In this document: positions 9,220 through 51,747 of the stretch, piece by piece
Position numbering within the stretch: position 1 is the first letter of the stretch
Layout: each line of letters opens with the position of its first letter
From: Granulicella sibirica
GTDB lineage: Bacteria; Acidobacteriota; Terriglobia; Terriglobales; Acidobacteriaceae
DNA: 64,000 nucleotides
NCBI RefSeq assembly: GCF_004115155.1
Contig: NZ_RDSM01000001.1
Location: forward strand, 1,240,001-1,304,000
Direction: 5' to 3'
Translations under genes and position numbers: made by a program
Notes under the pieces: generated by a model
Databases searched by the model: none
The model's input: the letters and a program-made list of their open reading frames with translations, nothing else
What the model was told of the DNA's origin: nothing

Positions 9220-10595
9220 CCGAAGCCGATCACGCCGCTGTAGCCGCCGCTCTTGCTGGAACAGACGCGCCCGACCGCGTCATCACCAATCCCCAGACCG
9301 TCCAGCGCCTCTCGCGGGATTTCTACTGGTATTCTCCCATCCTCAAGGCCCTGCTCGATGACAAGGTGGCCGAGGTCGTCGTCCAGCCCATCTCAACCGA
9401 CGAGATCCTCCGCGTCCTCGCCACCTGCTACGGGCGCCGCATCCCCGTCACTCCGCGCGGAGCCGGCACCGGCAACTACGGCCAGGCCATCCCCCTCAAG
9501 GGCGGAGTCGTCCTCGACCTCTCCCGCATGGATACCATCGAATCCATCACCTCCGAGGGTGTAGCCATCGTGGGCCCCGGAGTCCGCCTAGGCGTCCTCG
9601 AAACCACCGCCCGCGTCCAGGGCTGGGAGTTGCGCTGCTACCCAAGCACGGTCGCCAAAGCAAGCGTAGGCGGCTTCCTCGGCGGAGGCTCCGGAGGAAT
9701 CGGCTCCATCAGCCACGGCGGCTTGCGCGACTTCGGCACCGTCCGCGCCCTCGAAGTCATCACCATGGAGCCTCAACCCCGCATCCTCTTCCTCGAAGGC
9801 GAAGCGGTCCACGAGGTCCTCCACGCCTGGGGCACGAACGGCGTCATCACAAAGATTTGGCTCGCCCTCACCCCAGCTGTCGAATGGGCCCAGTGCGCCA
9901 TCGCATTCCCCACCTTCGAAGCAGCCTTCACCTTCAGCGAGCAAATCGCCGCTGATGACAGATGGACTAAGCGCCTCGTCACCACATTCGAGTGGCCCAT
10001 CCCTTCCACCTTCGCCCCTATCAAGAGCGTCACCCGCGAAGGCAAAGCCCTTATTTTCATAATGATCGCCGCCAGCGAGCTAGCCGACCTCGAAGCCACG
10101 GCAACGGCAGCCGGAGGCGAGATCACCCATGCCGCCCCCTACACTGGCCTCCGCACCATTCCACTCCTCTCCGACTACACCTGGAACCACACAACCCTCT
10201 GGGCCATGAAGCATGATCCAGCATTCACCTACCTGCAATGCGGCTTCAGCCCAACCGAAGCCCGCTCCCAGTTCGCCCAGCTCAAAGCCAAGTTCGGCGT
10301 CGAGATCCTCTTCCACATCGAATGGATGAAAATCGGCACCGGCGCCGTCATCCCCGGATCCATCCCCCTCGTCCGCTACACCACCGAAGCCCGCCTCAAC
10401 GAGATGATCGACTTCTGCCGCTCGATCGGCGTCAGCGTAGCCAACCCTCATAGCAATAACGTCGAGGGCGGAGGCCGATACCGTCCCGACAACATTCAGC
10501 TCCTCACCAAGTACCGCTACGACCCCCGCGGCCTCATGAACCCCGGTAAGATGGTCACCTTCCAGCCAGCCCCGGAAATGAGCCCCAAGGAGTAA
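9216..10595 (+). CDS. FAD-linked oxidase (PCMH-type FAD-binding domain)
   Basis: A 459-residue flavoprotein of the GlcD / vanillyl-alcohol oxidase superfamily. The PCMH FAD-binding signature is clear at about residues 75-100 (PVTPRGAGTGNYGQ, then GGVVLDLSRM), followed by GGFLGGGSGGIGSISHG. A C-terminal substrate domain ends with YDPRGLMNPGKM, the usual end of FAD-linked oxidase C-terminal domains. It oxidises a hydroxy acid or related compound; the substrate is unknown. No signal peptide is visible. It is coupled to the deaminase upstream and is seven bases from the creatininase gene. Confidence 0.85.
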   Translation: MTEADHAAVAAALAGTDAPDRVITNPQTVQRLSRDFYWYSPILKALLDDKVAEVVVQPISTDEILRVLATCYGRRIPVTPRGAGTGNYGQAIPLKGGVVLDLSRMDTIESITSEGVAIVGPGVRLGVLETTARVQGWELRCYPSTVAKASVGGFLGGGSGGIGSISHGGLRDFGTVRALEVITMEPQPRILFLEGEAVHEVLHAWGTNGVITKIWLALTPAVEWAQCAIAFPTFEAAFTFSEQIAADDRWTKRLVTTFEWPIPSTFAPIKSVTREGKALIFIMIAASELADLEATATAAGGEITHAAPYTGLRTIPLLSDYTWNHTTLWAMKHDPAFTYLQCGFSPTEARSQFAQLKAKFGVEILFHIEWMKIGTGAVIPGSIPLVRYTTEARLNEMIDFCRSIGVSVANPHSNNVEGGGRYRPDNIQLLTKYRYDPRGLMNPGKMVTFQPAPEMSPKE

Positions 10596-43792: not shown

Positions 43793-44635
43793 CTACCGGC
43801 TGCGGGAAAGCCTGTACTCTGCAATTCGCTTACCGCCAGCGTCCGTGAGAGTGATCCGGTAGTTCCCCGTCGGAACCTCAGCTGCGGGCAGAGACACCTC
43901 TACATACGTCTCAGTGTCGACCTTCTGGATGGGTAGCCCGGAGAACACCCGGACGTCTTCTCCAGCGTTATTCGCAATCCGAAGTGTGCTCTCCGTCACG
44001 GTCAACCCTGCAGGCAAAACGGCTTGCAGACGAACTGACTTAGCGACAGCCGGAATCAGGACCGCCCTGGCCGGCGCTCCTCGCAGAATTGTCGGCAGAA
44101 GAATCACCGTAAAAACCGTAGTATCTGTCGCTTTTTTTGTCTCTACGGGTGCGCTTGCGATGGAGTCCAGCCGAGCAACATTACCTTGATCGGAACCCCT
44201 TCTCGCCAGCAGGAAGCCGGTAACAAGAACGAGCAAAACGGCCGCAATGGCAGTGATCAGCCTGACCTTCGTCCACGGGAGCGGCCAGCCGGCCTGGCGT
44301 TGCTTTGAGCTCTTGAGCCCGATAGGTCTTAGCTCGCCCGTCTTACCGCCGGACGCATCGCGCGCAGCCTTCAAAGCCCGCGCAAAGCTCAGTTGCTTCT
44401 GTGCGGACGAATGCATCCGCACAAGCTGCTCGAGACGAGCCGCCGATGCCGCGTCAAGCGTCCCGTCGGCATAAGAGTCCATGATGTCGACAACACCCTC
44501 CTCAAACTGGCTGAGAGACTCTGGCTGTGTCAGCATCTCCGCGTCAAGCTCGGCAATCTTCTCCTGAGGAAGCTCCGACAGGAGATAGCTCAGGAGGAGC
44601 CTGTTGCGAGCTTCGATTTCCTTCGGTAAGATCAT
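43793..44635 (-). CDS. Membrane anti-sigma-like protein
   Basis: A 280-residue protein. The N-terminal about 90 residues are helical (NRLLLSYLLSELPQEKIAELDAEML and onward) and stand where anti-sigma domains stand, but the usual zinc-binding His/Cys pattern is missing. One membrane helix spans about 124-144 (RLITAIAAVLLVLVTGFLLA). The outer part, about 130 residues, is beta-rich (VFTVILLPTILRGAPARAVLIP, TYVEVSLPAAEVPTGNYRITLTD). It follows the sigma gene by 53 bases on the same strand, so it is probably the sigma factor's membrane-bound partner. GAAGGAAAC lies before the ATG. The function is inferred from context. Confidence 0.72.
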   Translation of the reverse strand: MILPKEIEARNRLLLSYLLSELPQEKIAELDAEMLTQPESLSQFEEGVVDIMDSYADGTLDAASAARLEQLVRMHSSAQKQLSFARALKAARDASGGKTGELRPIGLKSSKQRQAGWPLPWTKVRLITAIAAVLLVLVTGFLLARRGSDQGNVARLDSIASAPVETKKATDTTVFTVILLPTILRGAPARAVLIPAVAKSVRLQAVLPAGLTVTESTLRIANNAGEDVRVFSGLPIQKVDTETYVEVSLPAAEVPTGNYRITLTDAGGKRIAEYRLSRSR

Positions 44636-44644
44636 CCGTTTCCT

Positions 44645-44658
44645 TCACCTGTAGGTGA
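44645..44658. promoter_or_regulatory. Palindrome between the sigma and anti-sigma genes
   Basis: TCACCT-GT-AGGTGA is a perfect 14-base inverted repeat in the 53-base gap, 9 bases upstream of the anti-sigma start. It could be an operator or affect translation start. A shorter GTGA-AATA-TCAC lies alongside at 44668-44679. Confidence 0.3.
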
Positions 44659-44688
44659 GTCCGTTGGGTGAAATATCACGCCAGCTCC

Positions 44689-45288
44689 TTACCGGTCACT
44701 TGTGAGCCGCTTCGCCAGGCACTCTTCCAGGAGCTTGCGAAGTCGCAGCATCCGGTTACGCAGAGCATTGAGTGAGATGCCGCTTTCCTCCGCGAGCTGC
44801 TGACGTAGCTCAATCTTCTCGCGGGCCGTGGCGCTGTAATAGAGAAGCAGTTGCGTCTTTTGCTCCGCCGCAATCTGCTCAAGACAGTGATCAAGCGCCA
44901 GTTCTCGTTCGTCGTGCGGCGTCTCCTGCGCTGGCTGGCTGTACGTCGGATTCGCCCGCAGCAGTTCTCCGGCAATGAACTCCCGTTTTCTGAGCGCAGC
45001 GTACTCCTCTCGAAGGAGCATGCGCGCGATGCCGAGCGCGTAGTGGACAGGCTTCTCCACAGCAACGCCCTCCTCCATCCTCCTCGCGAGGCGATCAAGA
45101 CATACATCGGCAGTACGTTCCGCTTCGATGAGATGGTGTAGCTGAAAGAACCGGCAGAGCCGCCGCCGCAGGTCTTCATAGGCGATCGCGGCTTTTTCGG
45201 GATCGGGATCGAGCTGATACAGCAGGGCGTTCAACGCGCTTCGCTGCAGGTTCCATGCCGTTCGTTCGGTCGAATTATCTGGTGGCAT
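44689..45288 (-). CDS. ECF-like sigma-70 family factor
   Basis: A 199-residue protein read from ATG 45288, whose start overlaps the end of the CHAT gene by 14 bases. The N-terminal half resembles a weak region 2 (ALNALLYQLDPDPEKAAIAYEDLRRRLCRFFQLHHLIEAE, then DVCLDRLARRM). The C-terminal half is a region 4 helix-turn-helix (LDHCLEQIAAEQKTQLLLYYS, then LAEESGISLNALRNRMLRLRKLLEECL). Overall length fits ECF factors. Region 2 is divergent enough that promoter melting is not certain. Tight coupling to the caspase-like gene upstream and the membrane protein downstream suggests one signalling unit. Confidence 0.78.
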   Translation of the reverse strand: MPPDNSTERTAWNLQRSALNALLYQLDPDPEKAAIAYEDLRRRLCRFFQLHHLIEAERTADVCLDRLARRMEEGVAVEKPVHYALGIARMLLREEYAALRKREFIAGELLRANPTYSQPAQETPHDERELALDHCLEQIAAEQKTQLLLYYSATAREKIELRQQLAEESGISLNALRNRMLRLRKLLEECLAKRLTSDR

Positions 45289-48200
45289 GCAGTGTGCTTC
45301 CCGAGAGGCCTTCAAGTTGGAACGCGGCCCAATAGTATGGCGAACGATAGCGCGGGTTCTGGGCGAGGGCAAGCTGCGCACGCCTCAAGGAAACACTCGG
45401 CGGGAGGTGGCGACGCAGTAGATTTGTATAAAAGTCTTGGACCAGTTCACTCGAAGCGTCGTCTTCGACGCTCCAGAGTGAGCCGATCGCGCTGCGAGCC
45501 CCCGCATACAAAAATGCGTTAGCGAGGCTAGCGATTCCTTCGCCCGGAACATTCCTTCCCTCAGCCGTCTGGCATCCGCTCAGGAAAACCATCTCCGGCA
45601 CGCCGTGAAGTTGATAGATCTGGTTGAGCCACAGCATGCCGTCTTCATGGCGTCCCTTCGCGTCGACCATGGTGAACGCAATGCCCGTGAAGGTTGGCGA
45701 AGCACCGAGCAGAGCATGCACCGCGAGATGCATGATCTGGTAGTCGCTCCATTCCGTCGCCAGCATCAGCTTCGCGGACGCGTCCGATCCCAGATGCAAA
45801 TCAGCGTTGGAGGCCCCGGAGAGCCTTCCGATGAAGGCCGCCTCGGTGCTGCTGGCCGACAGACGGTCGAGCCGCGGCAAGGCAGGTGAAGAGATCTGGC
45901 TGACCTGGGTGAGTCCCGGGTGAGACTTCAGCAGACGCTCGTCGCTCTCCGAGTACAGAGGATCGGCGAAGACGACAACACGCCGAGGAGCGGCGCGATC
46001 GGCCTTCTGCTGTGCGCTCTCACGTCTCAGGAGTTGAAGCAAGAGGGACGACGAGGGCTCCTCGACAACGTCAGCGTGCTCAATCAATGCGGCGTTCGTC
46101 GACGGATCGGTCAGCGCTGGGAACGGCAGGCTCGCCAGTTTGCCGTCAGGTATAACGTAGAGCAGTTTCTGCTGCCGGCCTGCAAGCGGTCTGAGCAGTG
46201 TCGTCCCAAGCTGAAGCAGAAGCGCGCTCGTCTGATCGTCGACGCGGTGAATTCGGCTTACGCGCGCTTCCATGTCTTCACCGGCCACCAGCTCCTGCCT
46301 GCTCAGAATGGCTTGGTTGAGCGCCTCCACCCTCCTCTCGATCTCACGCCGCGGCGGCAGACGCACCACGCGAAACCGATCCCCTGTGACATACCAGCAG
46401 ACGCTCTCGGTGTCGCCAAGCCAGAACTCAAGCAGAGATGCCTTCTGCGACCCCATCGACCGTTGTACCTGCGCGACCGTCGCGAGCGTCGCCACACCAT
46501 GGGAACCTGCCTTGCGATCAAGGCTTTCCAGTGCATCGCATTGCGCGACCAGCGATTGAATCTGCTGCCTCGTCTGCACGATGCGATAGCTTGCGTTGTC
46601 ACTCGTCAGATAAAGATCAGGCAGACGATGATAGGCGGCGGATAGACGCTGCTCACATGCTACCGTCTGCCCACTTGCTCCATTGCCTGAAGAAGCCGGC
46701 CCGGAACCAACTTCTGCCTGGTCCGTAAGACTACGTGCCCGCGCCATCTCCACAATCTCAAACGCTCGTGCTGCATAGCCTCGGCCTGGGCGTGCCTGGT
46801 CGAGCCTGAGCATAAGCTGAATCGACAGCTTATAGACCCTCTGTTGATCAGCGAAGTAAGAGGTGCGAAGCTCTCGCCCGGGCACCATGCTTCGCGTTCG
46901 CTCGATCAGCGACAGAGCCTCACTGGACTCACGTTCCGCCAATTCGAGCTTTCCAAGATCTACATCGATGCGCGCCATTCGCGAAATGGCATACGCCGCC
47001 TGCGTCCGTTCGTTTGCTTCGGTAAAAATGGACTCAGCGCCGCTATACGCTTCCCTTGCGGCAGCCCTGTGCCCAAACGAAAACTCGAGATCCGCGAGAT
47101 CCAGCGCAGCCGCAGCTTCCCCTTCGATGAAGCCGATCGAGGTCGCCTGCGCCATGGCTTCCCTTGCCTGCCGCGTTGCTTCCCCCGCTTGCCCCTCCGC
47201 ACCAAGGGTACGCGCCAAGCCGGCCTTTAGAAGCACCGCCTCACGCAGGAGGCCCGCTTCTAACGCGACGGAGAGCGCCGAAGTATAGGACGCATGGGAA
47301 GCCTTAAGTTTTCCTTGCGAACGTTCCAGATCGGCCATCTCGGAGGTCGACTCGAGCAGAGCTGCCGAGTCGCTTGCATCGTGCGCGGTCTTGATCGCAT
47401 GTTCGTAGGCTTCCTCTGCCGCATCTGCTTTACCAGCGTCCTTATAGAAACGTCCAAGGCCGCGCCAGACCCCTGCTTCGACCGCCGGGTAAGGGGCCTG
47501 TTGAAGAACACCCAGCGCCTGCTGATAGCTCGCAAATGATTGGCCTAACTCCCCGCGAGCGGAGTGAATCGAGCCCAAGGCTTCCAGCGTGAAGATGCGA
47601 CCATAGTCATCGTGGAGTTGTTCCGCTGTAGCAAGCGCCTGTTCAGCGGTCGTGAGCGCATTCGAGCTGTCACCACTCTCCAGGTAGACATACGCCAAGT
47701 TGCCAAGCAGCACACCCTCCCAATAGCGATCATGCAACGCTCGATAGATGTCCAGTGCTTGCGTCGAGTGCTTGATTGCGGATGGATAGTCGGCCAGATA
47801 GTAGTCCGTCGAGCCAAGCGTCTTGACAGCAAGCGCCTGAGTCGCAAGGATCGAGTGATCCGTCAGACTGCTCGTCTCAGCCGAGGGGCTCAGCGCCACA
47901 GCTTTAGCGGCAGTTTCATGGGCCTCGAGGTACTGGTTCAAGCGAAACAGCATGAGCCGGGATTCTTCGGTGAGGATCCTCTGCTCAAGCAAAACATCTC
48001 CCAGGGCACGGGCCGTTAGGAGTGCCGATTCGAACTCCTCACGCGCACGCGGCCATTTCTTAGCGTTCTTGCCCCGCCGGAGAAACTCCGCGTCGTAAAA
48101 GATACCCTCGGCTTCAGCTTTGCGCCGAGCGTCGTTTGCGCTCAGGGGCTCCGCTTCGACTAGGAGGCGGCCTTCCGACTCCTCGTCATTGTGATACGAC

Positions 48201-48628
48201 TCGATGGTGACGCAATACTCCACAACCTCGCCAGTGGCGGGCGCCAGAGTGGATACGATTGCGGCGCCCAGACCGGCGTCATTCGTTCGAATCGGCCCCT
48301 TGATCCCGCGACCAGGAAGCGTCAGCTTCTGAAAGTGCTCTCCCTGCACAAGCGAAAGCCGAAGGGGTCTATTGGGAACGACCTTGATGACGAAATCACG
48401 ATGCCCATGAGGAGCGATCTTGACCGCTTGATCTGCATTAATGCCAATCGATAGCGGTGCGGGGACTTGAGCAGACAAACGAGCCACCGGGAGGCACGGC
48501 AGGCATCCGAAAGCTACTACGAGCACCAACCCAGACCGCGCTAACCAGGTGCTGTTATACCTTCTTCGTGTCGAATGAGTCGCAACGTCATTTTTCGTTC
48601 GACTCAATAGACTTGCGAGGTAGCCCAT
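45275..48628 (-). CDS. Exported TPR-CHAT (caspase-like) protein
   Basis: A 1117-residue protein. An N-terminal hydrophobic segment at about 32-50 (GLVLVVAFGCLPCLPVARLSAQ) looks like a signal peptide with a long positive leader. A beta-rich region follows to about 160. Tetratricopeptide repeats fill about 165-620, many with the Y/L-x2-G-x-Y/A pattern (DYYLADYPSAIKHSTQALDIYR and others). The CHAT protease domain lies in about 720-1110. The catalytic dyad is intact: His971 in MHLAVHALL and Cys1019 in FLSGCQTAEG, with the following GEGIASLANAFLYAGA. CHAT proteins are caspase/separase-type proteases. The next gene, a sigma factor, overlaps its end, suggesting proteolytic control of signalling. Confidence 0.9.
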   Translation of the reverse strand: MGYLASLLSRTKNDVATHSTRRRYNSTWLARSGLVLVVAFGCLPCLPVARLSAQVPAPLSIGINADQAVKIAPHGHRDFVIKVVPNRPLRLSLVQGEHFQKLTLPGRGIKGPIRTNDAGLGAAIVSTLAPATGEVVEYCVTIESYHNDEESEGRLLVEAEPLSANDARRKAEAEGIFYDAEFLRRGKNAKKWPRAREEFESALLTARALGDVLLEQRILTEESRLMLFRLNQYLEAHETAAKAVALSPSAETSSLTDHSILATQALAVKTLGSTDYYLADYPSAIKHSTQALDIYRALHDRYWEGVLLGNLAYVYLESGDSSNALTTAEQALATAEQLHDDYGRIFTLEALGSIHSARGELGQSFASYQQALGVLQQAPYPAVEAGVWRGLGRFYKDAGKADAAEEAYEHAIKTAHDASDSAALLESTSEMADLERSQGKLKASHASYTSALSVALEAGLLREAVLLKAGLARTLGAEGQAGEATRQAREAMAQATSIGFIEGEAAAALDLADLEFSFGHRAAAREAYSGAESIFTEANERTQAAYAISRMARIDVDLGKLELAERESSEALSLIERTRSMVPGRELRTSYFADQQRVYKLSIQLMLRLDQARPGRGYAARAFEIVEMARARSLTDQAEVGSGPASSGNGASGQTVACEQRLSAAYHRLPDLYLTSDNASYRIVQTRQQIQSLVAQCDALESLDRKAGSHGVATLATVAQVQRSMGSQKASLLEFWLGDTESVCWYVTGDRFRVVRLPPRREIERRVEALNQAILSRQELVAGEDMEARVSRIHRVDDQTSALLLQLGTTLLRPLAGRQQKLLYVIPDGKLASLPFPALTDPSTNAALIEHADVVEEPSSSLLLQLLRRESAQQKADRAAPRRVVVFADPLYSESDERLLKSHPGLTQVSQISSPALPRLDRLSASSTEAAFIGRLSGASNADLHLGSDASAKLMLATEWSDYQIMHLAVHALLGASPTFTGIAFTMVDAKGRHEDGMLWLNQIYQLHGVPEMVFLSGCQTAEGRNVPGEGIASLANAFLYAGARSAIGSLWSVEDDASSELVQDFYTNLLRRHLPPSVSLRRAQLALAQNPRYRSPYYWAAFQLEGLSGSTLHATR

Positions 48629-48632
48629 CTTT

Positions 48633-48872
48633 TTATCCCGGTCTTAGCCCAATCCTTCGCCGATGTGCACCGACGCATCCATCTTGGTCGATGAGGATCC
48701 AGAAATCAACTTCGATCTGAGCAGTCACTGCACCACTGCGGACCGTTAGGGGTACGCTGGTAACCTTCGAGATGCCGCCAAGGGTGACTCTGTTTATGGG
48801 GAACATGACTCGCCAAGGGAATTCCCATTCCAACAGGGCGGACGCCTCCGCACAATACACCTTATGAGTCAT
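48633..48872 (-). CDS. Small hypothetical protein upstream of the CHAT gene
   Basis: A 79-residue ORF whose stop lies only four bases before the CHAT start codon, as in a coupled operon. Its C-terminal part (SGAVTAQIEVDFWILIDQDG, residues 46-65) reads like two beta strands with an acidic turn. No signal peptide or membrane helix is seen, and no clear ribosome binding site precedes the ATG. I recognise no family. It could be a real small partner or a remnant of a longer gene; the tidy spacing is the best argument for the former. Confidence 0.45.
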   Translation of the reverse strand: MTHKVYCAEASALLEWEFPWRVMFPINRVTLGGISKVTSVPLTVRSGAVTAQIEVDFWILIDQDGCVGAHRRRIGLRPG

Positions 48873-49092: not shown

Positions 49093-51747
49093 TCATTTCG
49101 GTTGCGCCTGAGTCTCCGCTGCCGGTTTCTCAGGCTCGGTCCCAGACTTCGCCGGAGTGTCGAGCGGCTTCTGCGCGGCAGCAGGATCGACTGCCTGTGA
49201 CTCCGGAGAGGCAACCGGATCGGCAGCAGCCGCAGCGGGAGGAGGTGAAGTAGGGGCGGGAGCTGGCGCTGGCTTCTCCATCGGAGTGGGCAGAAGTACA
49301 CTTGCCACACTCTCAGGATCATCGCGCAGCTTCAGGTAGACCGTCGTTCCGTCGGCAGGCATCGGCACTTTGAAACTGGTTTCAGCGAAGCCTGTTGGAA
49401 CTTTCGTTTGATTCGCGAAATCCTTTGCCGCACCAAAAGCCTGCACGAGGAATAGATTGCTACCCTCCGCCGTGCAGGAGGAGTCGCCGGCTGTCGCGCA
49501 CTGGATCGCGGTAATTTGCGGCGTGCGAACGAGCATTCCGAGCGGCGTCCAATCTCCCGTCGTGCCATCCGCCGCTACAGGCCGCATCTGCAGTTTGCCG
49601 AAGGCCGACTGGCCGAATGCTTTCAGCGGATCGAGCGTCGCAATAGCTGTGTGTTCGTCCTGAAGCATTAAGTCGTTGGTTGCGAGCGAAAGACTCGTAT
49701 GGACAGATCCATCGGCCGTCGCTACTTCAATGGTCTGCGTGCGCGGGAATGCGTCCTTCGTCTGCACGACAAGCGTCAGCTTCCCGTTGAGCGGAATGTC
49801 ATTCTTAGCCCCGAGCGTGACGGGAAGAGAGCCTTCCTGTTTCGCGGGAGTGTCGTTGAACGAGAGCAGTTGAAGCCCCGGCCTCGCCGCTTCGGTGGAG
49901 ATCTTGGCGGTCATGGTGCGGCCGTCCTTCAACTTCACCAATGCGTCAGAGCCATCGTCAGGCGAGACTCCCGATTTTGCATCGAGATGCACCGTCGTGC
50001 CGTCATTGCCGTCATTAGCGGGCGTGAACGTCTGCTCGCCAATTTGCACCGAGACCACATCTTTGAGGCCCTGGCCCCTGAGGACAGCAGCATGATCCCC
50101 TTTGTGGATCTTGAGGCCATCGACGTGAATGTCACCGGTATAGGCGGTGAGTGGAACATCGCTCTTCGCACTCTCGCCGTATTGCTGAATGGCTAGGGAG
50201 TAACCACCTGGTTGCCCCTTCTTGAGCGACACGGCAAGATCAAGGGTGTCCTTGTTGTCTTTGTCTCCTGAGGCTGGCTTGAAGGCGACGTCGACGTCTT
50301 TGTCCTTGTTATTCGTCAAGGCAATACTCTGTACGCATGCCGTTCCATCGGCTTTTAAGGCAATGTGGCTATCCTGCCCCGCGAGAAGTTGCGTGTCGCT
50401 GACGATCTTCCAGCCTTTCCCGGCGACCTGCTGCATGGTAAGTGTCGGTCCATCGAAGGGATCGAATCCCCAATAACCATGAACGGTTCCGGTGATGGTC
50501 AGGTCACCGCTGCTTCCGGTCTTTCCGGCAGGCTTTGCGTCCGCGCCCTGGGGCTTGGCATCAGGTTTAGCGTCGCCGAGCGGGGTTCGCTGCTGATCTT
50601 TCGCTACGATCAGGCCCCCCTCAAACGCCTCCGGCGTCAGCGGAAGATCGGTTGGGGCCTCGGTCCGATTCAGGCGGAGAACTAGGTCATGAGCAAAGCT
50701 TGTCGAGAACACCAGCGGTGCGCCCTCAAGCATCAGGGCCATTTTCGGCTGCAACAGGCATGCGACTTGGTTGGGATCGTGTGCGTGCAGGGGAGGAAGC
50801 TTGGCCTTCTGGATAGCAGGCAGCCCGACCACAATGACCGACTCCGGCTTATGGAAGGAAGGAGGTGCGTTCAACTTCAGGTTTAGGGTCGAACCCTGCG
50901 GAAAGCTAATCCCAGGAATGTACTGGTACTGCGCCGTCCGCATGAGGCTGACCAGGTGAACCAGATCGACCACCGCCCCGACATAGGCAGAGTAGAGACC
51001 AGCACCTGCGGTCTGGGTATAGGAAGCCGCGTTGATGAAGTCTGACGATGGCCCCGTAGAAAGCGCTTCGGCGATGCCCTGTCCATGCCCGTCGTCCAGC
51101 AGGACTGGAGCGCTCGACTGAGTCAGGCAGTTTACCTGCTGTTCTATCGGCTGCTTGAAGCAATCGGCGTTCGGCTTTAGCGCAAGCGTCGCCGCCAGCT
51201 TAGCCGACCGGTCCTGAATTGCCTTCTGGTCGTTCGTCGGAACGGTCTTCATCGCCGTCAAGTAGCGCTCGATGCGCTGCTGTTCGAATGACGCCTCGTT
51301 CAAATCCGCATCGGCCCGGATAAAGAGACCAGGCTTCCCCTTGACGGCGGAGCGAAGAGTGCCGAAATCGCCGCCAGTCTCCGGAGCAATAAAAATAACG
51401 GCCTGCTCCGCCTCGCCTGGAACGGTTACCGTAGTCCCCTCTGCTGTCTTCTTGTCCCAGGTCTCGATCTTGGTAAACCAATTGTCTGGAGGCTCATTCG
51501 TTGTGCCCCGCAGAAAAGCCACGATAAGCAAAAGGTGGTTGGCTTGGGTGGATGGCAGGTCCGCTTTCACCCAAATCTTGTCGCCCGCCTGAAGGTTCGG
51601 AACCTCGGCGATCGGGAGCGTTACACTCCCGCGCGTCACACGAACGTCGATCTTGGGGCCGACGAGGTCAAACCGTGCGTTGTCGGCGTGAAGAACTGCC
51701 GTACTGAAGGCGGCAACGAGGCAGGCAGCTACTTTCGAGAACTTCAT
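49093..51747 (-). CDS. Large secreted protein of unknown function
   Basis: An 884-residue protein with a signal peptide (MKFSKVAACLVAAFSTAVLHA). It is mostly beta structure with few cysteines. Around residues 540-560 the pattern HKGDHAAVLRGQGLKDVVSVQIGEQTF resembles IPT/TIG-like immunoglobulin folds. Lys/Asp-rich linkers separate blocks (GDAKPDAKPQGADAKPAGK). The last 65 residues are a Pro/Ala/Glu-rich, probably disordered tail. I know no characterised homologue. Its orientation matches the CHAT-sigma genes downstream, 220 bases from the next ORF, so a shared role is possible but not shown. A TCTAAT box lies five bases before the ATG and no Shine-Dalgarno is seen. Confidence 0.8.
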   Translation of the reverse strand: MKFSKVAACLVAAFSTAVLHADNARFDLVGPKIDVRVTRGSVTLPIAEVPNLQAGDKIWVKADLPSTQANHLLLIVAFLRGTTNEPPDNWFTKIETWDKKTAEGTTVTVPGEAEQAVIFIAPETGGDFGTLRSAVKGKPGLFIRADADLNEASFEQQRIERYLTAMKTVPTNDQKAIQDRSAKLAATLALKPNADCFKQPIEQQVNCLTQSSAPVLLDDGHGQGIAEALSTGPSSDFINAASYTQTAGAGLYSAYVGAVVDLVHLVSLMRTAQYQYIPGISFPQGSTLNLKLNAPPSFHKPESVIVVGLPAIQKAKLPPLHAHDPNQVACLLQPKMALMLEGAPLVFSTSFAHDLVLRLNRTEAPTDLPLTPEAFEGGLIVAKDQQRTPLGDAKPDAKPQGADAKPAGKTGSSGDLTITGTVHGYWGFDPFDGPTLTMQQVAGKGWKIVSDTQLLAGQDSHIALKADGTACVQSIALTNNKDKDVDVAFKPASGDKDNKDTLDLAVSLKKGQPGGYSLAIQQYGESAKSDVPLTAYTGDIHVDGLKIHKGDHAAVLRGQGLKDVVSVQIGEQTFTPANDGNDGTTVHLDAKSGVSPDDGSDALVKLKDGRTMTAKISTEAARPGLQLLSFNDTPAKQEGSLPVTLGAKNDIPLNGKLTLVVQTKDAFPRTQTIEVATADGSVHTSLSLATNDLMLQDEHTAIATLDPLKAFGQSAFGKLQMRPVAADGTTGDWTPLGMLVRTPQITAIQCATAGDSSCTAEGSNLFLVQAFGAAKDFANQTKVPTGFAETSFKVPMPADGTTVYLKLRDDPESVASVLLPTPMEKPAPAPAPTSPPPAAAAADPVASPESQAVDPAAAQKPLDTPAKSGTEPEKPAAETQAQPK

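Follow-up and report, generated by a model that had tools for sequence, protein, structure and literature searches.

The locus in Granulicella sibirica

A stretch of 64,000 nucleotides of the Granulicella sibirica genome (contig NZ_RDSM01000001.1, positions 1,240,001 to 1,304,000, forward strand; hereafter the window, with positions counted from its first letter) carries a set of three genes, all on the - strand, recognised by open reading frame (ORF) analysis and domain searches. They encode a protein with tetratricopeptide repeats (TPRs) and a protease domain of the CHAT type, akin to the caspases of animals, a sigma factor of the extracytoplasmic function (ECF) type, and a membrane protein with one span. 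The features considered below are the following.

45275..48628, - strand: TPR-CHAT protease, apparently exported; 1117 residues, with a signal-like N-terminus, TPRs, a CHAT domain at 804-1107 and the dyad His971/Cys1019
44689..45288, - strand: ECF-type sigma factor, 199 residues from the ATG, assigned by family alignment and profile matches
43793..44635, - strand: anti-sigma-like membrane protein, 280 residues, with five N-terminal helices, one span and an outer beta-sandwich
44081..44083, - strand: codon of Arg185 in loop 180-189 of the membrane protein, the putative P1 residue of a CHAT cut (position counted from 44635, the start of the gene, and read in the sequence)

A preliminary description of this DNA, made from its letters and ORFs, had reported the three genes in this order and with an overlap, and both hold. 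The ORF of the sigma factor opens with a GTG at 45381, the family alignment favours the ATG at 45288, and this ATG, as read from the sequence, sits 14 nucleotides inside the end of the CHAT gene, whose stop codon is at 45275-45277.

The CHAT domain was matched by the Pfam model PF12770 at residues 804-1107 with an E value of 7.2e-54 (183.6 bits, against a cut-off of 24). TPRs lie in front of it, and the N-terminal part of the protein, beta-rich by eye, gave no Pfam match. His971 and Cys1019 are exactly where the preliminary description had placed them, and the His/Cys dyad is kept in all 54 CHAT proteins of the cassettes described below. Glu929 is invariant. By profile and dyad the window protein is a member of the CHAT peptidase family with a predicted peptidase activity. 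Its export, also claimed earlier, was judged by hydropathy, in cassette CHAT proteins. A hydrophobic stretch is present at residues 33-51 of the window protein, and a strongly hydrophobic stretch was found in the first 70 residues of 40 of 47 unfused cassette CHAT proteins (the 54 minus five fused ones and two ORFs of 700 residues or less), versus none of 77 sigma factors and two of 47 internal CHAT stretches; some of the seven that have none look like ORFs with over-long starts. Cassette CHAT proteases are thus apparently exported, and the cytoplasmic location that the preliminary description had named among the findings that would count against its model is not borne out, either by these N-termini or by the fused forms, in which CHAT lies beyond the span. 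A PDZ domain at the N-terminus of some CHAT proteins was considered and rejected, three of four tested proteins matching PDZ families and all below the cut-off. The PADLOC model BovA matched residues 1007-1068 of the window protein at 2.3e-5, and this CHAT lineage may conceivably have a defence role.

As a single sequence, the window sigma factor gave no sigma domain in a Pfam search, and matched the NCBIfam model TIGR02989 at 2.2e-8, under that model's curated cut-off. A profile built from 12 family rows matched ECF sigma factors of solved structure (RpoE with E 3.3e-6, over positions 43-182), and by this comparison the window protein is akin to ECF sigma factors over regions 2 and 4. A special kinship with the CASP-sigma of type III-E CRISPR systems was dropped, since the CASP-sigma model matches eight of the 12 members (best 5.6e-5) and TIGR02989 all 12 (best 7.8e-13). 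Four Cys residues, forming two CxxxC pairs around region 4, are kept in 83, 69, 72 and 65 of 87 rows of the family, two of them being retained in the window protein; these pairs might possibly form a metal or redox site.

The third protein had been described as a single-pass membrane protein with a beta-rich outer domain, and this was confirmed. Hydropathy gives a single span at 126-144, and an AlphaFold model has five confident helices at 7-97, a membrane helix at 121-149 and eight outer strands that form a beta-sandwich at 174-279; with a simple hydropathy threshold the span was found in 66 of 74 membrane proteins of this type. Its N-terminal domain is likely to be anti-sigma-like and as such would bind the sigma factor. 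The domain zf-HC2, which we take to be an anti-sigma domain, matches 30 of 61 family members (best 7.5e-7) and the window protein at 0.032, below the cut-off, and the best match among PDB profiles (E 0.012) was 3hug_B, annotated as a probable conserved membrane protein and presumably RslA, the anti-sigma factor of SigL. In these respects the protein may be akin to the class I anti-sigma factors, RslA included; it differs from them in that the window protein contains no Cys and in that RskA_C matches two of the 61 members only. In the PDB profile search, weak CopC matches fell on the outer domain. Foldseek, run with the model of the membrane protein, gave azurin as its single match at E <= 0.001 (TM 0.24 by query) and no closer kin; the 50 matches listed are mostly beta-sandwich proteins, which indicates a general likeness only.

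Linkage, rearrangement and fusion of the three genes

A search with the single window sigma sequence in the host's own family rendered relatives in 10 of 150 genomes. The 12-row profile, run against 297 Acidobacteriota genomes, rendered 77 matches at E <= 2.1e-23 (at least 85 bits), below which scores drop to 67 bits; they are spread over 33 genomes and 16 families. The surroundings of all 77, the window locus among them, were taken for gene-neighbour counts. A second scan, of named records from genomes that are partly the same, rendered 70 loci, 69 of them from Acidobacteriota and one from Chthoniobacterales (Verrucomicrobiota), going by the titles of the records; when 149 loci were pooled, 138 proved distinct. 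As controls we used 20 other ECF sigma loci in stretches of up to 20 kb, 14 of them from cassette genomes; three of the controls (L229-L231) represent a sister group in which an anti-sigma-like gene is present and CHAT absent.

An anti-sigma-like membrane gene was found at 300 bp or less and on the same strand beside 74 of the 77 sigma genes, and a CHAT gene within 300 bp of 35, 1.5 kb of 48, 4 kb of 54 and 6.1 kb of 57. From the density of CHAT genes in the 33 cassette genomes (at least 367 matches over 183 Mb), 2.3 of the 77 sigma genes would be expected to have one within 4 kb, and none of the 20 control loci has a CHAT gene near. The second scan rendered similar counts, with CHAT inside 4 kb at 53 of 70 loci and the membrane gene at 67. 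Counted by genome, the sigma-CHAT pair occurs in 29 of 33, the remainder being G116 (where the sigma gene is near a contig end), G150, G204 and G256. The host genome, of 6.14 Mb, contains six CHAT matches; among the five genomes with one CHAT match only, it is the cassette CHAT in three (G383, G095 and G365). Comparison across genomes thus shows that the three genes form a conserved cassette, linked beyond chance, and the co-occurrence across Acidobacteriota on which the preliminary description had made its model depend does exist.

At 31 of the 54 linked loci the CHAT gene precedes the sigma gene (5') and shares its strand; it is found 3' at 12, fused at five and on the opposite strand at six. 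When these states, together with absence, were placed on a quick sigma tree (82 of 87 sigma factors, L035 and ORFs over 300 residues being omitted), 31 changes were counted, compared with 40.3 in shuffles; supported branches alone force seven changes for the upstream, three for the downstream and three for the opposite state, many forks being weak. In a quick CHAT tree, five of 13 CHAT proteins encoded 3' form a separate clade, and the other eight fall among those encoded 5'. By the sigma tree, gene order was rearranged often while the linkage persisted. Sigma and CHAT distances are correlated overall (r 0.44).

In some loci a single protein of about 1,160-1,255 residues combines an anti-sigma-like domain, a membrane span, TPRs and a C-terminal CHAT domain. 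This one-chain form was found at five of the 77 survey loci (L109, L110, L117, L119 and L133), in all of which the dyad is present, and at 10 of the 70 named loci, with at least one locus common to both; on a CHAT tree of 62 rows it has a single origin (support 100/99). Given a cytoplasmic anti-sigma-like domain and no second span, this arrangement would place CHAT outside, which suggests that, in the one-chain form, CHAT acts outside the cytoplasm.

A conserved arginine and the proposed release of the sigma factor

One column of the outer domain of the membrane proteins stands out, that of Arg185, where all 65 filled rows have Arg; four such rows (L086, L098, L113 and L115) lack a beta-type outer domain, had been matched by alignment chance and were later removed. 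In order to relate this residue to the presence of CHAT, 106 distinct membrane proteins with a beta-type outer domain were taken from the 138 loci, after removal of 14 fused proteins, six of less than 215 residues and 12 without a beta match. Arg is present in 83 of 85 with CHAT inside 4 kb, in 10 of 15 without CHAT and in four of six with too little flank (L131 was assigned a sufficient left flank by hand, since the neighbouring stretch L103 is contiguous with it). The association has a Fisher p of 0.0007, not corrected for phylogeny. The two exceptions are L124, with Lys, and L196, which is truncated; dropping the doubtful L196 and L098 leaves 83 of 84 versus 10 of 14 (p 0.0013).

As a guard against an alignment artefact, the Arg column was masked, the profile rebuilt and 40 held-out rows aligned to it. 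Among the 31 rows with CHAT, Arg fell on the column itself in 25 and within two residues of it in 30; within two residues it was found in one of four rows without CHAT and in three of five of unclear CHAT status, so that the comparison is 30 of 31 versus four of nine (p 0.001). In 95 of 97 proteins Arg185 is followed by G, S, D, A or N, as compared with 35% for other Arg residues. A pattern for Arg that needs no alignment was met by 83 of 85 proteins, versus 55.6 in shuffles, and no other charged residue is in such excess. In the AlphaFold model Arg185 lies in a loop (180-189) between the first two outer strands, the block of lowest confidence in the beta domain (pLDDT 76).

In 14 of 15 fused-type proteins, in which TPRs replace the beta-sandwich, the span is followed by the motif P....R-G or R-S, at a distance of 36-45 residues in 13 and of 68 in one. 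The 15 include the split form L113, which is also one of the four, out of five unfused TPR-type membrane proteins with CHAT, that keep the Arg motif. Of TPR-type proteins for which CHAT is absent or its presence unclear, L209 and L173 (a truncated ORF, matched weakly by CHAT) keep the Arg, and L098 and L184 do not. Among the three sister loci without CHAT, inspected by eye, one has no Arg, one has R-P and one R-A. A conserved Arg that goes with CHAT fits a cleavage of the outer domain, and Arg185 is proposed as the site at which CHAT would cut. Peptidases of clan CD, the members of which share a His/Cys dyad, are as a rule strict at P1, and Arg is given as the P1 residue of clostripain, separase, paracaspase and others (PMC4357240). 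The TPR-CHAT protease Csx29 cuts Csx30 likewise in a small flexible loop (PMC10028731); the position of Arg185 therefore fits a cut, and a preference of CHAT for Arg, in keeping with other clan CD enzymes, is plausible but not given.

We propose that the cassette is a transmembrane module for sigma release and, by a modest balance of probability, hold this to be the correct reading. In the resting state, the sigma factor would be held by the N-terminal domain of the membrane protein. A cue received by the CHAT protein at its TPRs and N-terminal part would switch on the CHAT domain in the periplasm, and CHAT would then cut the outer domain after Arg185, in the loop that joins the first strand to the second, 41 residues past the span; in one-chain forms it would cut its own tether. 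The remaining stump could become the substrate of an intramembrane protease of the M50 type (M50 peptidases gave five matches in the host genome and were also matched in 14 of 14 control genomes), and the sigma factor so released would raise the expression of its target genes, perhaps of its own operon.

Several observations weigh against this proposal. The sigma family is confined to 33 of the 297 Acidobacteriota genomes surveyed, 23 of the 77 sigma genes have no CHAT inside 4 kb, and the sample may lean towards CHAT-linked loci, eight of the 12 sigma factors that seeded the profile being near a full CHAT gene. No correlation of sigma and CHAT distances was found among 25 within-genome pairs, and a promoter search upstream of 85 cassettes rendered no two-box pattern above shuffles. 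The topology of one-chain forms is not certain, as L110, L117 and L119 have extra weak hydrophobic stretches in the TPR/CHAT part. With regard to Arg185, it is kept in 10 of the 15 beta-type proteins without CHAT, so that its role may be structural, or another protease may use it (three of these ten loci, L074, L084 and L139, have a CHAT gene 5-6 kb off); its distance from the span is variable (5-95% range 23-94); the alignment-free pattern is loose, since some two thirds of shuffled sequences match it, as do seven of nine held-out rows without CHAT or of unclear status; and phylogenetically independent pairs for the link between Arg and CHAT amount to two in favour and none against, too few for a test. 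In addition, Csx29 cuts Csx30 at 427-429 with no single residue being essential (PMC10028731), and CHAT need not, for that reason, want an Arg.

It can also be the case that sigma and anti-sigma factors sense a signal by themselves and that CHAT is a regulated product directed at other periplasmic targets, such as envelope proteins or invaders, the Arg being structural. The Arg kept without CHAT would agree with this, as would the 31 of 54 loci in which CHAT is encoded 5' of the sigma gene and in the same direction, and many ECF sigma factors control their own expression (PMC10028731). The fused proteins argue in the opposite direction, since they join protease and likely inhibitor in one molecule and bear the R-G motif even though TPRs replace the beta-sandwich, and we regard this explanation as unlikely, though a serious contender. 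A further alternative, which we consider improbable, is that the Arg of the outer domain occupies the active site of CHAT as a pseudosubstrate and keeps the protease off, so that release of the sigma factor and of the protease would be coupled; the prodomain of gingipain places an Arg in the S1 pocket in a like manner (PMC4357240), and an inhibitor of this kind would account for the Arg going with CHAT, but the small residue after it in 95 of 97 proteins fits a cut at least as well. That the genes are mere neighbours with no functional tie, kept together by common descent or because regulatory genes cluster in general, might be read from the numerous paralogues within one genome (up to nine, in G421) and from within-genome distance correlations that are not significant, but this can hardly stand against 54 linked loci where 2.3 were expected and none of 20 controls had CHAT, nor against fusions and rearrangements that kept the linkage.

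Relation to known systems and neighbouring genes

The release of the sigma factor proposed here has counterparts in known systems. The Csx29/Csx30/CASP-sigma set of type III-E CRISPR systems (Craspase) likewise comprises a TPR-CHAT protease, an inhibitor of an ECF sigma factor and the sigma factor; it differs in being triggered by RNA and complexed with Cas7-11 (PMC10028731), whereas the CHAT protein described here has a signal-like N-terminus and a membrane partner. The NCBIfam models of Csx29 and CASP-sigma were matched far under their cut-offs (12.3 of 300 and 17.3 of 100 bits), and no family of direct repeats of 22 bases or more, as in a CRISPR array, was found in window positions 34000-58000, Cas7-11 (gRAMP) not having been searched for. 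CalpL/CalpT/CalpS of type III CRISPR systems is also a set of protease, anti-sigma factor, which is cut, and ECF sigma factor, but its protease is of the Lon type and activated by cA4 (PMC11417357). In Escherichia coli, the membrane anti-sigma factor RseA, which controls RpoE, is cut by a site-1 protease, DegS, and then by a site-2 protease, RseP (PMC8103513). DegS belongs to the HtrA family of serine proteases, whereas here a cysteine enzyme, CHAT, is encoded beside the sigma gene, an HtrA-like gene being found near one relative without CHAT (L098).

The preliminary description had proposed a signalling route unlike that of DegS/RseP. This was overstated, since CHAT would follow the logic of a site-1 protease, and CRISPR systems already offer a TPR-CHAT protein that cleaves the inhibitor of a sigma factor (PMC10028731); its interpretation as a whole is partly supported. 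We see the cassette as one that would work like Csx29/Csx30/CASP-sigma and DegS/RseA while being a member of neither. A search of open-licence literature found no description of an exported, CRISPR-free form, and PMC10028731 was the only article there to combine 'CHAT domain' and 'ECF'. If the proposal is correct, a substrate and a role in signalling could be assigned to some of the many Acidobacteriota CHAT proteins, which account for at least 367 matches over the 33 cassette genomes, protease-gated sigma release would extend, beyond serine proteases, to caspase-like ones acting outside the cytoplasm, and Craspase would have a counterpart beyond CRISPR. The single conserved Arg makes the model testable by one point mutation.

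A clostripain-like C11 peptidase is encoded near CHAT or the sigma/membrane pair at 14 of the 77 survey loci and 11 of the 70 named ones, at least two of which coincide with survey loci, and at none of the 20 controls; 14 of 77 versus 0 of 20 has by itself a p of 0.067. Fourteen of the 20 distinct C11 genes in the 33 cassette genomes lie in cassettes, and a signal-like N-terminus was found in none of 24 C11 proteins examined. The window cassette has no C11 gene, a paralogue in the same genome (contig C5, L023) has one, and in G256, a genome without CHAT match, C11 adjoins the sigma/membrane pair. A wider picture, of a signalling class spread through Acidobacteriota, would be that exported CHAT proteases free ECF sigma factors by cutting membrane anti-sigma proteins after the one conserved Arg, with self-cutting one-chain forms and, in about one fifth of loci, a cytosolic C11 peptidase, the whole amounting to a two-compartment cascade of caspase type that could resemble the stock behind the CHAT/sigma modules taken up by CRISPR. 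This we put forward tentatively, as it falls somewhat short of being probable.

By eye, several C11 proteins (L083, L107, L125, L126, L177 and others) terminate in short repeats arranged in tandem, with a KNPP-like motif close to the C-terminus. At L023, a 193-residue protein without Pfam match is encoded at 9651-10232, between the CHAT and C11 genes. In the window, a 79-residue ORF at 48636-48872 (- strand), directly upstream of the CHAT gene and included in the locus by the preliminary description, had no relative among the related loci fetched up to that point and was left out of the set; further upstream, a protein of 884 residues (49093-51747, - strand) gave no match in a Pfam search. Near CHAT-less loci, peptidases of several families are encoded: C14 (L102), C11 (L134), S8 (L122), S41 (L073), HtrA (L098) and S10/S46 (L080). 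That they replace CHAT was set aside as a lead only, with kinase genes near such loci too (L086, L094, L095 and L128) and no background rate. The protein kinase genes of L094, L095 and L128 lie directly upstream of the sigma gene, and the membrane proteins of L095 and L128 are short (200 and 177 residues) and lack most of the outer domain.

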